DNA of 26,127 nucleotides from a virus: the IMG/VR virus record IMGVR_UViG_3300034190_000476, positions 1 through 26,127 of that record; one strand, given 5' to 3'. Each line of letters opens with the position of its first letter. The first letter of the stretch is position 1. Below, one piece after another: positions 3,378-18,796 of this stretch. A program made the translations under genes and the position numbers. Under the pieces are notes generated by a model. The model had not been told where the DNA came from. It ran no database searches and saw only the letters and a list, made by a program, of their open reading frames with translations.

Positions 3378-3794
3378 TTATTCTGGCTTAGTCGGCCAAG
3401 TTATTTCCGTTGGGAAGCCAGCTTGATCTGTGATGTCAAGCAAGGCAGTTCTGTAGGAAGACCACTCAGATTGCTTCTCAGCGGTCATCTCTGCCCAGCG
3501 CAAGTTATTGGACACAACAGGGTCAACTTCTCTGGTTAAGATGTTGTCACGCTGGTCACGCACCTGTGCCTCTGCAGTTGCATCTAGCTCTGCCTGAGTG
3601 GGTGCAACATACGCTGTAAAGTTAGAACCTATGAGAGCCATTACTTCATTGTTGTTGATGGTCGTATCCGTGTCGGCAGGGTCAAGAGTGTAAGTTATCC
3701 AGCCAAACTCAGGGTGGTTAATCTCTACGTCCATGCGAAGGTTGTCAGACTGTAGTGATGCCGCATTACGGACTTCTGTTATTGTAATGCCCAT
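3378..3794 (-). CDS. Tail fibre assembly chaperone-like protein
   Basis: 138 aa. The C-terminal half carries the signature of phage tail-fibre accessory/chaperone proteins: RDNILTREVDPV (82-93) followed by RWAEMTAEKQSEWSSYRTAL (98-117) and the ending GFPTEITWPTKP (126-137). The N-terminal half ([19 protein letters not shown]) probably contacts the fibre. Such proteins help trimerise or fold the distal fibre. Its start overlaps the stop of the collagen-like fibre gene by one base, a tight coupling that fits a dedicated chaperone. Family membership comes from the RD-NIL / W-YR / FP-WP pattern as I remember it; no search was done. Confidence 0.8.
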   Translation of the reverse strand: MGITITEVRNAASLQSDNLRMDVEINHPEFGWITYTLDPADTDTTINNNEVMALIGSNFTAYVAPTQAELDATAEAQVRDQRDNILTREVDPVVSNNLRWAEMTAEKQSEWSSYRTALLDITDQAGFPTEITWPTKPE

Positions 3795-5422
3795 TATGAA
3801 ATCCTCACGAATAGTGTAAAACGTGTAAAGCTGCTGGATGAACTATTCATAGTGCGGCCCATAGCACGCCAAGTCCCACTAAGAGCGCTTCCGCCTTGGG
3901 TATGTATGAAACTTCCACTTCCGCTGTCTGCTGAAAGACTGGTCAGATAATAAAAGTCCCCGGCAGGAGTAATACTGCTTCCAGCCTTTGTGGAACCCTC
4001 TGTGATACCTGTGCCTGAAAAGTACCCCCAAACATAAGTCCCAACAGCGCCGTATGTTGTACTAGCGCCACCTATGCCAGCTGAGGTGATTGCCGAAGCC
4101 GTGGTGCTGTCTATGCTGGCGATGTTCTGTAATTGCCTAGAAGAACTAATGACATCAGTCCCTTGGACTTCAAGCATATAAACATTCACAACTTGGGAAC
4201 GAACTTCAAGACTTTCGTATCCGCCGCATACAACTCGCCACTGATCCGATGCGTGGAAATTCATGTACGTGTTGGTGTCACCGTGGTGAAAGATTTGATC
4301 GACGCCGTAGATGTCGTTGTTATTCATATCGAGGTAATGACTATTCATCTCAATATTAGCGGCTACGTTTATAGTGCTGTTATTGACCTCAAGACGTTCA
4401 GTACCGCCTGTAACAACACGCCATTGGTCTGCAGCATGAAACTGCGTGTAAGTATTAGTATCGCCAGTTGAATAAATAGCATCATCAAGATAAATGGCCT
4501 GAACGTCATTTATGGAATTGTCCCCAAAAGTTACATTTCCTGTGAACGTACCACCACCGAATGGGTTACCGGACGGGCCAGTATTACCTTGAGGACCTTG
4601 AGAGCCTGTAGGGCCTGCGGCACCAGTATTACCTGTAGAACCCTGTGGACCTGTAGAACCCTGCGGTCCTGTCGCACCTTGTGGGCCTGTATTCCCTTGA
4701 GGACCTGTTGGGCCTTGAGAACCTGTTGGTCCAGTTCCACCTGTGGCACCCGTGTTACCCTGTGGGCCTTGCGAACCGGTGTTACCTTGTGGACCTGTAG
4801 CGCCAGTAGCACCGCGAAGGTTTGTATATGAACCATTCGTTCCATTTGGGTTTGTGAAGCGTAGTGAATAGCCACTCCAGTTATGCGCAGGCGCAGCACC
4901 TGTGGCACCCGTTGCACCTGTAGAACCAGTGCCACCTTGTGGCCCTTGTGGGCCTGTCGCACCAGTGCTTCCTGTTCCTCCAGTAGCACCTTGCGGACCA
5001 GTGTTACCTTGTGGACCCTGTGGACCAGTAGCCCCAGTGTTACCTATTCCACCCTGTGGACCTGTCGGGCCTGTATCTCCATCATCACCCTGCGGCCCTG
5101 TAGGACCGGTGGCTCCGGTTGGACCAGTTGCACCAGTGCTGCCTTGTGGGCCTGTAGGCCCTTCATCGCCTTGGATACCCTGTGGTCCTGTTGCGCCTTG
5201 TGGTCCAGTAGCACCATTAGCGCCGTTGGTCCCGTTAGTTCCCTTTTGGGCAACTTGCTGCCAGTAGGTTGTGTTAGTTGTTGCTGTGCCGACAGGTACA
5301 TCGATTTTGGCAACAAATGTTTCACCGCTATAATAAACGGCATCTTGTGCAACGTAAGTTGTGGTGGAACTCCATGTTCCTTTCCAACCCATACGCACAC
5401 GTCCAATATTTAATGTTCCCAT
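3794..5422 (-). CDS. Collagen-like tail fibre / receptor-binding protein
   Basis: 542 aa. Domains in order: an N-terminal module at 11-56 ([20 protein letters not shown] ... YWQQVAQKG) resembling small carbohydrate-binding modules of the CBM5/12 type; collagen-like tract 1, 39 G-X-Y triplets (61-177); a 26-residue non-collagen insert with [17 protein letters not shown] (178-203); collagen-like tract 2, 28 triplets (204-286); a region with a duplicated 27-residue motif (320-346 and 381-407); and a C-terminal tip (about 452-542) rich in G, S and T with GTWRAMG and ending in LFVRIS, a pattern I associate with tips of marine phage fibres. It probably trimerises and contacts the host surface. It starts 2 nt after the first fibre gene and overlaps the chaperone gene. 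Confidence 0.85.
4202..4282 (-). repeat. Fibre motif copy 2 (27-residue DQWRVV repeat)
   Basis: Encodes residues 381-407 of the second fibre protein: [18 protein letters not shown] followed by CGGYESLEV. It is the second copy of a motif at 4385-4465, matching at 20 of 27 residues. The bases have diverged more than the protein, so the duplication is old or selected at the protein level. Each copy is preceded by a short D-x-IY / Q-IFHH type segment. It probably forms a repeated fold unit along the fibre. Confidence 0.8.
4385..4465 (-). repeat. Fibre motif copy 1 (27-residue DQWRVV repeat)
   Basis: Encodes residues 320-346 of the second fibre protein: [18 protein letters not shown] followed by TGGTERLEV. 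Partner of the copy at 4202-4282. The centre-to-centre distance is 61 residues, and the segment between has [13 protein letters not shown], so the full unit may be about 60 residues long. Confidence 0.8.
4565..4813 (-). repeat. Collagen-like coding tract 2 of the second fibre
   Basis: 28 consecutive G-X-Y triplets (residues 204-286), mostly [12 protein letters not shown] and GSQ. DNA repeat units of about 9 nt (e.g. CCTTGTGGA variants on the plus strand) recur with silent changes. It is a likely substrate for slippage or recombination with the other two collagen tracts. Confidence 0.9.
4892..5242 (-). repeat. Collagen-like coding tract 1 of the second fibre
   Basis: 39 consecutive G-X-Y triplets (residues 61-177) beginning [15 protein letters not shown]. 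It is Pro/Gln/Thr rich with some acidic triplets (GDE, GDD, GDT) near the middle. It is separated from tract 2 by a 26-residue non-collagen insert. Confidence 0.9.
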
Positions 5423-5424
5423 TT

Positions 5425-6753
5425 TTACACCGTACTCACTGATAAGAACCCGTTGGCATCGATTGAGAAATCGTTGTCATCAGCATCCCCATAATATTCC
5501 ATTAAAAGCTCACCATCCGAATTGATGGAGAACGTACCGAAGGCTAATCCTAACGGCGTAGAACCCATTGCGCCTGTTGGTCCTGTAGATCCGTCTGGCC
5601 CAGTATTGCCCTGAATACCTTGGGTTCCTTGAGGACCAGCTGGACCTGCATTACCCTGTGGGCCGAGTGGTCCAGTTGCTCCAGTAATACCTTGAGAACC
5701 TGTAGGTCCCTGAGAACCTGTCGCTCCGGTTGCTCCAATTGGTCCTTGGTTTCCGGTTGGGCCGATTGGTCCCTGTGCGCCAGTTGCACCTTGCGGTCCC
5801 TCTGTGCCTGTTGGCCCAGTTGGTCCTGTTACACCTGCATCACCTTGCGGTCCTTGGTCACCATCAGCGCCAGTAATCCCTTGAGGTCCTGTTGGACCCT
5901 CTGGTCCCTGTGGACCTGTGAGACCCGTTACACCTTGCGGCCCTGTAGAACCTGTTGCGCCAAGATTACCTTGTGCGCCTTCTGGCCCTACATCACCTTG
6001 GTTACCCGTTACGCCCTGCAAACCTGTCGGGCCTTGCATACCTGTCGGGCCTGCCGGACCTGTATCGCCTGTAGCACCAGTCGGTCCTTGCGGACCTTGG
6101 ACACCTTGGATGCCTACCGGACCTTGCGGCCCGTTGGGTCCTGATGGACCTGCAACACCTTGGACACCTTGAGGACCCTCAGAGAGGCTGAACTCAAGAT
6201 TACCATTTTCGGCATCATAAGTTGCATAGCCTGCAGACCCATAAGGCAGGGACACCATTGAGGTTGTCAGGTTGTATAACTGGTCACGAACACCTTGAGC
6301 GCCAGCTAAGATTGAAGCTCCGGAGTTATTTACGAAGCCTCGGGTGGCTACCTCATCGTCTGTTAAGGGTTCCCCAATATTCTTTAATCGGTAACCTTCA
6401 GCATCCCACCTATTATCTAAGTCACTTAGTTCCATAGAATTTGAAGCGCGGTCATCAGCTTCTTCTGCAAGGAACCTTGCTTGCTTGTTTGCTAGGTCTA
6501 AGTCAGCTTCAAATAGCGTTGAGCCATCTGTGAAATCGACCAACGGCACCTTCGAAGTTTGCCGTTTTATAGTAACTATAGAGTCTACTGTTGGGGTTGT
6601 TGTAATCGATACTGTTGTATCGTTTATGAATGTAAATGGGGCCGCTGTCCCTGCAACTAAAACAACAACGTCCACACGGTTGATATAGTTGAACGGTATT
6701 GAAAATTCTGTTGTAGAACCGTCAGCCACATATTTGACTATACTGTCAGCCAT
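5425..6753 (-). CDS. Tail fibre, gp17-like N-terminus, collagen shaft
   Basis: 442 aa. Residues 1-145 resemble the T7 gp17 N-terminal domain that docks the fibre on the tail: [19 protein letters not shown] near the start, then [20 protein letters not shown] and [20 protein letters not shown]. Residues 193-399 are 69 uninterrupted G-X-Y collagen-like triplets, an unusually regular shaft. A short C-terminal piece (400-442) with [21 protein letters not shown] follows, too small for the usual receptor-binding tip. This suggests it is the proximal (docking and shaft) part while the next gene product is distal; that division is inference. The start at 6753 has AGGAGA 6 nt upstream and follows a hairpin at 6773-6794. 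Confidence 0.9.
5557..6177 (-). repeat. Collagen-like coding tract of the first fibre
   Basis: 69 uninterrupted G-X-Y triplets (residues 193-399), mainly GPQ, GPT, GVT, GAT and GNQ. X is often Pro and Y often Gln or Thr, the usual bacterial/phage collagen composition that folds without hydroxyproline. Many near-identical 9-nt units occur in the DNA. The plus strand of this tract gives Pro/Thr/Cys-rich open frames that are compositional shadows. Confidence 0.92.
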
Positions 6754-16466: not shown

Positions 16467-16667
16467 TCATACTGATTTCTTACCGCGACAGCCCCAAGCC
16501 TTACGACGAGCCTGAACTTTAGCAGTTGATTTTTGACCGCTAGAACGAGCGCAGTATGCGTCAGCACGTTTCGTACCTTTAGCGGATGTACGCTTTACAG
16601 TTTTGCCGTTAGAGCGGTATGTGGTGCCATTTGCATATTTCTTATCGGCGGAAGTTCTATTGGTCAT
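16467..16667 (-). CDS. Small basic conserved-type phage protein, 66 aa
   Basis: It is strongly basic (many K and R), with a pattern RADAYCARSSGQKS (35-48) and ARRKAWGCRGKKSV at the end. I remember similar small proteins with this Y-C-AR-S / W-C pattern beside capsid and tail genes of marine podoviruses, but know no function. Two cysteines could bind metal or pair. It is the first gene after the capsid terminator and lies 7 nt before the gp11-like gene; its stop TGA is part of that gene's ribosome site. It may be a minor virion or DNA-binding protein. Confidence 0.75.
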   Translation of the reverse strand: MTNRTSADKKYANGTTYRSNGKTVKRTSAKGTKRADAYCARSSGQKSTAKVQARRKAWGCRGKKSV

Positions 16668-16729: not shown

Positions 16730-17692
16730 CTAAGCCGTGGTAATTTCTACCGCGCACTCAGGACGCAGGACACCGTGGCCCATTGCGTACTTAGCAGCCA
16801 TGAGTGTACCTTGGTACATGACTTCAAAGTCACCAGATGTACGCTCTACTGCGAGGTCCATCAATTTGACTGTACCAATAGCCTGCTTCTGCATAACCAG
16901 AGCTACGGTATTGGAGAAGTCACCTGAGTAGGTGTTATTCTCGCCGGATACTGCAGCTACGTTAGCTGTTGGCAAGTTGTTAGATTTAACAATCTCGATG
17001 CCAGCAACTTTCAGAACTGTACCCTCGGCGTATACACCGGCTCCACCCCAATCACGGTTGATTACAGAAGTCTCTTGGACCAAGTTGTAATACTGTGCAG
17101 GAGCTACGATAGCTACGCGCTCATTCTCTGGAACGTCTTTCTCATCCATTGCTTTCGCAGCGTCAAAGATAGCAGCGGCCAAAGCCGCACCAGTTGTACC
17201 AGCGTTTGCAGATACCAAAGTTGTACCGCCGTTACCGCCAGAGATGGTCGCAGATGAACGTGCGCCCAAGAGACCTACGCGCATTGTGCGTGTGTCAAAT
17301 TCTTTAGCCAAAGCCATACCCAAGAGGCGGCTATACTCAGCACGCACATCGTAGTGGTTTTTGGCTTCATCGATATTTGCGATGAATGTATCAGCAATCA
17401 GAACGTCATCGATGTTGATAACAATCTCATTGTGAGCAATTTTCTGTGTACCCAACAATGGAGTACCTACAGTGTGGTAAGCAGCGTTGGCTTTACCGGT
17501 CACTGGGAAAGATGCTGACTTACCGGACGCGATTGTGCGGGAAGTGTGCAGGTCTTTCATTACGTTTGTTTCGTCAAATGCGGTGAGAACTTCACCAGCA
17601 AAGACTTTCAGGAACAGGTTGTTCTCTGATGCGAAATCCGTTGGGGTCGCCTTATTGACAACACCTAGACGGGATGCAGTTACGTTTGTCAT
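16730..17692 (-). CDS. Major capsid protein (T7 gp10-like, HK97 fold)
   Basis: 320 aa; T7 gp10A is 345 aa. It is the shell protein assembled on the scaffold. Typical features: an N-terminal arm, then KVFAGEVLTAFDETNVMKDL (29-48), SGKSASFPVTGKANAAYHT (57-75), HNEIVINIDDVLIADTFIAN (87-106) for the E-loop and spine-helix region, and a C-terminal FEVMYQGTLMAAKYAMGHG followed by RPECAVE. AGGA lies 7 nt before the ATG. It is preceded by a 128-nt leader, the only long intergenic gap here, and followed by a strong terminator, so its mRNA is probably the most abundant. I see no sign of a gp10B-like frameshift product. Confidence 0.95.
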   Translation of the reverse strand: MTNVTASRLGVVNKATPTDFASENNLFLKVFAGEVLTAFDETNVMKDLHTSRTIASGKSASFPVTGKANAAYHTVGTPLLGTQKIAHNEIVINIDDVLIADTFIANIDEAKNHYDVRAEYSRLLGMALAKEFDTRTMRVGLLGARSSATISGGNGGTTLVSANAGTTGAALAAAIFDAAKAMDEKDVPENERVAIVAPAQYYNLVQETSVINRDWGGAGVYAEGTVLKVAGIEIVKSNNLPTANVAAVSGENNTYSGDFSNTVALVMQKQAIGTVKLMDLAVERTSGDFEVMYQGTLMAAKYAMGHGVLRPECAVEITTA

Positions 17693-17733
17693 TTTCTTAT
17701 CCTATGGAAAAATATTCTAGATTGAGAATGACT

Positions 17734-17744
17734 GTCGTTCATTA
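17734..17744 (-). repeat. Direct repeat copy B, TAATGAACGAC
   Basis: The second copy, nearest the capsid start, of an 11-nt repeat. Here it is part of a loose palindrome (AATGA ... TCATT, 7-nt centre). Spacing to copy A is 42 bp, four helical turns, which would put both on the same face of the DNA. Confidence 0.55.
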
Positions 17745-17775
17745 CTTGTCAGGGTTGTCGGACGCATCCGGCCTA

Positions 17776-17786
17776 GTCGTTCATTA
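17776..17786 (-). repeat. Direct repeat copy A, TAATGAACGAC
   Basis: The first copy of the 11-nt repeat in the capsid leader, identical to 17734-17744. It overlaps a GATAAT hexamer that could pass for a -10 element, though no matching -35 is seen. Confidence 0.55.
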
Positions 17787-17820
17787 TCGATAGTCTCAGC
17801 CACCTAAGAAGGTGTACTAG

Positions 17821-17958
17821 TTATTTCTTTTTTGCAGTCTTAGCTGCATTCTTAAAATCTTTTGCCGAAGGTGCGCCCTTTGCGCCAACCTTGCGAGGCT
17901 TTCCACCGCGTGCTTGTTTGGCGTGTATGTTTGCGTATAAGCCCCTTTTAGCTGTCAT
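17821..17958 (-). CDS. Basic micro-protein before capsid, 45 aa
   Basis: It begins MTAKRGLYANIHAKQARGGK and ends KDFKNAAKTAKKK, with 15 Lys/Arg. I recognise the KRGLYANIHAKxxR ... KGAPxAKDF pattern from small conserved proteins near capsid or tail genes in many phages, function unknown. The start at 17958 is chosen over a longer frame (to 18126) because AAAGGAAAG lies just upstream and the conserved part begins here; the extension would overlap the 19-aa gene and the scaffold. It could be a DNA- or RNA-binding or minor virion protein. Confidence 0.82.
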   Translation of the reverse strand: MTAKRGLYANIHAKQARGGKPRKVGAKGAPSAKDFKNAAKTAKKK

Positions 17959-17977
17959 AATCTTTCCTTTGTAAATT

Positions 17978-18009
17978 GACGGGGCGCAGTTGATACCTGA
18001 CACCCCGCC
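17978..18009 (-). other. Stable hairpin between two micro-ORFs
   Basis: In minus-strand RNA a 10-bp stem (GGCGGGGUGU / GCGCCCCGUC) closes a 12-nt loop. Three pairs are G-U in this strand but mismatches on the plus strand, which argues for function in the minus-strand transcript. No U-run follows, so it is not a simple terminator. An RNase processing site, an mRNA stabiliser or a translational control of the 45-aa gene is possible. Confidence 0.6.
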
Positions 18010-18016
18010 GGAAGGT

Positions 18017-18076
18017 TTACTTTTTCTTTGGTGGACGACCACGTTTTGTACCGTAAGTATCCTTACCTTTTGGCAT
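18017..18076 (-). CDS. 19-aa AT-hook-like micro-protein
   Basis: MPKGKDTYGTKRGRPPKKK: 19 residues, 8 of them Lys/Arg, with a KRGRPPKKK end matching the AT-hook core (GRP flanked by basic residues), a minor-groove DNA-binding element. It has a near-perfect ribosome site (AAGGAGAT, 4 nt before the ATG) and starts 12 nt after the scaffold stop. This is strong evidence that so short a frame is translated. I recall similar MPKGKxTYG...RGRPPKK peptides in marine phage genomes, usually left unannotated. It may bind or neutralise DNA during packaging, or be a minor virion component; this is inference. Confidence 0.78.
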   Translation of the reverse strand: MPKGKDTYGTKRGRPPKKK

Positions 18077-18088
18077 CCTAATCTCCTT

Positions 18089-18796
18089 TTAAAATACCGA
18101 AGACCGCCCCAGCTTATTTTCCACATCCTTAGTGTATGCGGTGTCCTTGCCGTATCGGGGGTCTTTCATTGCAGACACAACTTCCGCTGTGCTGCGGAAC
18201 TCATCCTTGGCAGGAGCAGATGCCTTACCGGCAAGCAACGTAGGCTCAGAGCCTTCTAATGCTTCACGCTTAGACACTAACCATTCGACTGCCATCTTTG
18301 CGTTATCTGTACCTGTCCCAACCATCTGGTTGTAGAGTTCTAGTTCTTTTGTATCGAGCGAGTCTCGCGCCCAATCTGTCAACTCTTTGTAGCCTTCCTC
18401 ACCGCCTACGACTCCCATAACTTGGGTAGCATCTGCGGTTTGTGCAGCGTTCATTCCGTTGATGTAGGTTTCCACCATTTCTTTGGGGTAACCCATAGCT
18501 TCTAACTCGGTGAAACTATCTGCGCTTAACTCGCCAGAGCTTGCAAATTCCTCAGAGAACTTCTCGAAGCTTACAGGTTCTGACTGACCTTGCGGCTCTC
18601 CATCCGTATCAGATGGCTCTGCGGCTGTGTCTGTCGATCCTGAGAGTTTCTTCTCAAGTTCACTGTAGGACTTTGCTAAATCCTCTGGTGAGTTAAACTT
18701 TTCTGGCAACCATTCTGGACGTTCAGATTGGTTATCCTCTGCAACGGGTGCGTCAGGGCCAGTTTCGTCTTCTGTGATTGTGATTGTTTCTGCCAT
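18089..18796 (-). CDS. Capsid assembly scaffold (T7 gp9-like)
   Basis: 235 aa; T7 gp9 is 307 aa. It is an acidic protein that directs procapsid shell assembly and leaves before or during packaging. The N-terminus is acidic and disordered (ITEDETGPDAPVAEDNQ), then RPEWLPEKFNSPEDLAKSYS (26-45) and ELEKKL, the usual start of phage scaffolds of this type. The middle contains FTELEAMGYPKEMVETYING, and the C-terminus is more basic and aromatic (KDPRYGKDTAYTKDVENKLG), the part that normally contacts the shell protein. ATG at 18796 follows the 42-aa gene stop by 2 nt. Confidence 0.9.
   Translation of the reverse strand: MAETITITEDETGPDAPVAEDNQSERPEWLPEKFNSPEDLAKSYSELEKKLSGSTDTAAEPSDTDGEPQGQSEPVSFEKFSEEFASSGELSADSFTELEAMGYPKEMVETYINGMNAAQTADATQVMGVVGGEEGYKELTDWARDSLDTKELELYNQMVGTGTDNAKMAVEWLVSKREALEGSEPTLLAGKASAPAKDEFRSTAEVVSAMKDPRYGKDTAYTKDVENKLGRSSVF

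Follow-up and report, generated by a model that had tools for sequence, protein, structure and literature searches.

Judged from its sequence, the 19-aa open reading frame (ORF) between the scaffold and capsid genes of this phage is a member of a microprotein family that is absent from curated collections and is characterized by MPxGxGTYGxxxGRPxK plus a short lysine tail. We regard it as practically certain that this ORF exists as a gene. Diverse phages share its frame, its start and the 17 residues of its N-terminal motif, it is accompanied by ribosome sites or coupling overlaps, and it has frequently been gained and lost. We read it as an accessory gene of phage late operons that is translated and under selection. 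The window, i.e. the whole stretch of 26,127 nt that was analysed, is the 26-kb IMG/VR record IMGVR_UViG_3300034190_000476, and its genes mark the source as a T7-like phage that is kin to the Roseobacter phages CRP-114, CRP-361 and CRP-227. The minus strand carries, in this order, portal, scaffold, 19-aa ORF, hairpin, 45-aa ORF, structured leader and capsid:

18089..18796, minus strand: scaffold (T7 gp9-like), upstream neighbour; Phage_T7_Capsid, phrog_1052
18083..18088, minus strand: Shine-Dalgarno sequence AAGGAG of the 19-aa ORF, directly 3' of the scaffold stop
18017..18076 including stop, minus strand: 19-aa micro-ORF of the MPxGxGTYGxxxGRPxK family, with G6D in the window copy
17978..18009, minus strand: hairpin GGCGGGG...CCCCGTC between both micro-ORFs, read from the sequences
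17821..17958, minus strand: 45-aa micro-gene of the KxGLYANIHAK family, phrog_16028
16730..17692, minus strand: major capsid protein (T7 gp10-like), downstream neighbour; Gp10A-like, phrog_267

The 19-aa ORF encodes MPKGKDTYGTKRGRPPKKK and the 45-aa ORF, with AAAGGA upstream, encodes MTAKRGLYANIHAKQARGGKPRKVGAKGAPSAKDFKNAAKTAKKK. A preceding sequence-only reading had proposed two small basic genes with ribosome sites at this place, and both turned out to be real and conserved in frame between scaffold and capsid. It had also put the start of the 19-mer 12 nt past the scaffold stop, with which the positions of the AAGGAG and the ATG agree, the stop being located at 18091-18089 and the ATG 12 nt beyond. 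Codon 6 of the window copy (18059-18061) specifies D, while G is present in all other family members seen, including the near-identical contig L002; D thus occurs in 1 of 203 distinct proteins, in a search that admitted only G or D there, and may be a polymorphism or a sequence error. The hairpin at 17978..18009 is kept in relatives without either micro-ORF.

Other small elements were observed around these genes. The leader before the capsid gene (approximately 110 nt, window 17693-17820, minus strand) is conserved in 23 related loci with or without the micro-ORFs and forms two hairpins backed by covariation, 7 of 12 pairs being changed on both sides; it matched no Rfam family and a tRNA search of it found none. 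In P-SSP7 (L332:5322-5823) and Syn5 (L333:5755-6018), the capsid gene is preceded by an acceptor-like stem together with one hairpin and another resembling a T-arm, in Syn5 GGTTCGATTCC; ARAGORN reported no tRNA in these structures, and their fold z-scores are -2.7 and -1.5. Located 3' of the capsid gene (window 16467-16667, minus strand) is a 66-aa basic ORF, KRTSAKGTKRADAYCARSSG, which has no Pfam, PHROG or NCBIfam match and represents another patchy small gene, because the capsid-to-tail-tube gap measures only approximately 57 nt in CRP-114, -361, -227, -171, -113 and -125. Furthermore, two adjoining genes at window 3794-6753 (minus strand; 542 and 442 aa) contain long collagen-like GPTGPQG repeats and probably encode tail-fibre proteins.

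None of the Pfam, PHROG and NCBIfam models matches the motif of the 19-aa family and no PDB chain does so; the open-access literature, outside of which most subscription papers lie, yielded no published description of it, and an earlier one may exist. The family became visible through pattern scans. Scanning IMG/VR with MPKGxGTYG only returned at least 120 contigs. GRP, which was not part of this pattern, was found at the expected place (13-15) in all 120 contigs listed, its Arg codon took all six forms across them, and K was present at position 17 in 112. The second pattern, GTYGxxxGRPxK, gave 95 further cases among the matches listed; MPxG was located exactly five residues before GTYG in 89 of them, and four of the six cases without the expected MPxG start have Met one residue earlier. 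Two scans that were complete but restricted to few codon choices retrieved 42 and 18 contigs, with GRP in 63 of 63 copies when overlapping loci are counted. Scaling by the 8 of 120 listed MPKG contigs that use the scanned codon choices leads to about 900 MPKG-type contigs; K occupies position 3 in 11 of 79 second-scan matches listed, and the whole family may, as a rough estimate, comprise several thousand of the 2.9 million IMG/VR contigs. Among genomes of bacteria and archaea, 10 contigs matched MPKG, of which 8 contain true members of the family, all from metagenome-assembled genomes. The bare 20-mer gave no match in tblastn, probably due to masking of the lysine tail by the low-complexity filter, and relatives were found with a natural variant whose tail is less repetitive.

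Across the 203 distinct proteins, P2, G4, T7, Y8, G9, G13, R14 and P15 are essentially fixed (partly through the search patterns) and K17 is present in 96%. Residue 12 is V in 94 (46%), R in 53 (26%) and K in 49 (24%); the window copy has R. Most members are 18-35 aa long, and a few, whose tails are basic or rich in glycine, reach up to 316 aa. Twelve members carry an additional short module, QKxLPxxLxxxI, which also stands alone in HTVC168P gp29. In the loci L106, L123 and L254, the micro-ORF is flanked by or fused to a further short motif, HxMPxGxxHxxxxH, and there may thus be a whole set of such basic peptides made late.

The short length of the ORF and the adjoining RNA hairpins could be taken as signs of a spurious frame within a conserved nucleotide element. 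The codon pattern refutes this explanation, which we consider extremely improbable: synonymous codons vary freely at the invariant residues, the start is conserved, and the motif extends into positions by which the contigs had not been picked. The pN/pS ratio is 0.16 in the T7-like group and 0.25 family-wide for the 19-aa ORF, and 0.11 for the 45-aa gene, values to be read with the downward bias that motif-based picking introduces. An SD-like sequence precedes 191 of 241 family copies. Moreover, the next ORF begins at an offset of -1 in 65 and of -4 in 17 of the 203 distinct members, which is the pattern of translational coupling. The expectation that relatives would share the frame and the ribosome site was borne out far above chance, the frame being kept and the ribosome site present in most, with patchy presence of the gene itself.

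This patchiness is obvious among close relatives. The closest isolates, CRP-114, -361 and -227 (91-93% DNA identity over the aligned part), lack both ORFs and have a scaffold-capsid gap of about 190 nt, CRP-125 has the 45-aa ORF only, and CRP-171 and CRP-113, which share approximately 70% DNA identity with the window, carry both, the 19-mer being MPKGKGTYGKKVGRPPKKK. Among 61 capsid-bearing loci, 20 possess the 19-aa ORF and 15 the 45-aa ORF, 11 have both and 37 neither. On the tree of these 61 capsids, at least 11 changes are needed for the 19-aa ORF and at least 7 for the 45-aa ORF, and the pairs L049/L050 and L038/L042 have identical capsid proteins and differ in micro-ORF content. Since presence differs on the capsid tree even between phages with identical capsids, both ORFs are accessory genes that were often gained or lost at one site. 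The scaffold-capsid interval of P-SSP7 and Syn5 contains neither ORF. This absence, together with the frequent loss, argues against a core packaging role, and the capsid-assembly function suggested in the sequence-only reading is unlikely to be essential, given that near-identical phages do without the gene.

Named carriers of the 19-aa gene also include Pelagibacter phages Jormungand and HTVC022P, Cyanophage SS120-1, P-GSP1, S-SBP1, P-SCSP1u, the uncultured S28-C3 and phage C75C1. The gene lies between scaffold and capsid in CRP-171, CRP-113, Jormungand, HTVC022P, SS120-1, S-SBP1 and S28-C3, and it follows the capsid gene in P-SCSP1u. As anticipated for so short a frame, it escaped the gene callers in most isolates carrying it, being un-annotated in the genomes of CRP-171, CRP-113, Jormungand, SS120-1, P-GSP1 and P-SCSP1u.

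Terminase, portal, major head/capsid and scaffold families make up most of the commonest PHROGs among the 113 upstream and 112 downstream neighbours. The large terminase (phrog_2) accounts for 21 of 112 downstream and 8 upstream neighbours versus 4 of 111 in a distance control from the same contigs, which was only roughly length-matched (median 226 aa, versus 268 and 320 near the micro-ORF); portal and capsid genes also occur in both neighbour controls. Each of 39 long contigs has one copy of the family, at no fixed distance from the terminase; in 23 long contigs this distance spans 0 to over 10 kb. Terminase adjacency is therefore too loose to be a rule, and the claim was narrowed to a head/packaging neighbourhood. 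Glutamine-II riboswitches were detected between scaffold and capsid in SS120-1 (L325:3065-3116), just past the stop of the micro-ORF, in S28-C3 (L329:3838-3890) and in P-SSP7 (L332:5523-5576), and the P-SSP7 interval additionally holds hliP and psbA. The scaffold-capsid interval resembles a cargo site that accommodates very small genes. As hli, psbA and glutamine-riboswitch peptides share it in T7-like marine phages, the location of the 19-aa gene may reflect this cargo site rather than a head function.

The KRGLYANIHAK string of the 45-aa neighbour, singled out earlier as conserved-looking, is indeed the conserved motif of phrog_16028. The protein matches this family end to end (E 7.6e-15, residues 3-45 on profile positions 2-49 of 50), and tblastn detected matches in 125 phage records. 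Larger phage protein families contain the segment as well, and in the T4-like cyanophage ACG-2014e it lies within a 141-aa protein directly 3' of terminase gp16. AlphaFold predicted two helices with low confidence (pLDDT 69, pTM 0.32). A 41-aa protein of locus L097, MSLYRNINARKKAGTSRSKKKSTISAKAYKNMKAGFPNKKR, is encoded 7 nt 3' of the micro-ORF and is perhaps remotely related to the YANIHAK family.

The function to which we tentatively give preference, with a probability somewhat short of one half, is nucleic-acid binding by a late and dispensable micropeptide that belongs to the head/packaging module, for which we infer the following mechanism. The 19-aa peptide would be made late together with the head proteins and would bind nucleic acid via GRP and the lysines. 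The invariant GTYGxxxGRP segment would dock in a groove, its GRP core being AT-hook-like but permissive for the residue in front of it, and the lysines of the tail would counter the charge of the phosphates. In this way the peptide would help to organise or neutralise the phage DNA at packaging, or protect it, and the basic 45-aa neighbour with its two predicted helices could be a partner in the same late basic peptide set. The 19-mer may have a role in DNA condensation or packaging, as the sequence-only reading suggested. Evidence against a groove-binding peptide comes from V at residue 12 in 46% of the members, so that the RGR core, the part inserted into the minor groove, is not conserved. 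The more far-reaching proposal, that an uncatalogued microprotein family spreads among unrelated aquatic phages as mobile head-module cargo and acts as a minimal DNA-binding or condensing peptide hidden by gene callers, appears rather doubtful to us.

Two other functions were considered, each of which we rate as unlikely. The rigid PxGxGTYGxxxGRP part could bind a protein, namely scaffold, portal or terminase, and tune assembly, with the lysine tail being secondary. Such binding would be consistent with the strict N-terminal motif and variable tail, with the fusions to other short modules and longer tails, and with the frequent position directly after the scaffold gene. However, several families of major head protein, portal and terminase co-occur with the 19-aa gene, and phages with identical capsids differ in carrying it. 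Alternatively, the gene could be late cargo whose peptide is directed at the host and binds a universal component, for example rRNA or the ribosome. The patchy gain and loss (11 changes on the 61-row tree) and the parking of small peptides in the interval that also holds hliP, psbA and the riboswitches point in this direction, as does a local resemblance to the ribosomal protein bTHX discussed below, whereas genes for the head and for packaging are frequent neighbours across unrelated phages. Compared with both, the nucleic-acid-binding micropeptide remains our preferred explanation. Its role is directly testable with the cultured carrier and non-carrier pairs CRP-171 versus CRP-125 and CRP-113 versus CRP-361. 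In addition, MPxGxGTYGxxxGRPxK provides a precise, searchable signature of a phage protein that is among the shortest with strong conservation, from a family new to Pfam, PHROGs and NCBIfam and left without annotation in several cultured phages that infect SAR11, Roseobacter and Prochlorococcus.

Among known systems, bTHX (PF17070) resembles the 19-aa family in being a very short, basic chain in which RPxKK comes after GTYG, but the family is without the N-terminal half of bTHX (GKGDxxTRRGKI) and has two extra residues before RP. PF17070/TIGR04560 matched none of three family members, while T. thermophilus bTHX does match. With hhalign, the local GTYG..RPxKK resemblance obtained a probability of 29-43%. 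However, 2.3% of 300 shuffled versions of the T. thermophilus sequence, the only one used and confirmed in PDB, score as well and bTHX was chosen post hoc; allowing for this choice, the similarity is not significant, and the relation, for which no PDB chain matched either, is kept as a lead only. The short ORF downstream of the P-SSP7 glutamine-II riboswitch is likewise very short and located in the scaffold-capsid interval of a marine T7-like phage, but it has no sequence relation to the 19-mer, and a riboswitch precedes it whereas the window has none. Regarding the neighbour, phrog_16028 is a known family without assigned function, and the window form is without the RIxxGSGE insert of many members. 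The AT-hook is defined by a GRP core with basic flanks, of which RGR is inserted into the minor groove (PMC11354804; PMC5028900). The sequence-only reading had seen such a core in the 19-mer, and this holds for the invariant GRP with its basic flanks, which corresponds to the broad definition (PMC11354804), but not for a strict RGR(P) core, as residue 12 is V, R or K family-wide; the Pfam AT-hook model gave no match at E up to 10, such short models being weak. Like the HMGA-type AT-hook, the family has a GRP core with lysine and proline flanks and is short, basic and expected to be unfolded alone; it differs by the varying first R of RGR and the extra invariant MPxGxGTYG head. On these grounds the family may work like an AT-hook, with class membership being withheld, and if the DNA-condensing reading is true, it would represent the phage counterpart of protamine or AT-hook peptides.
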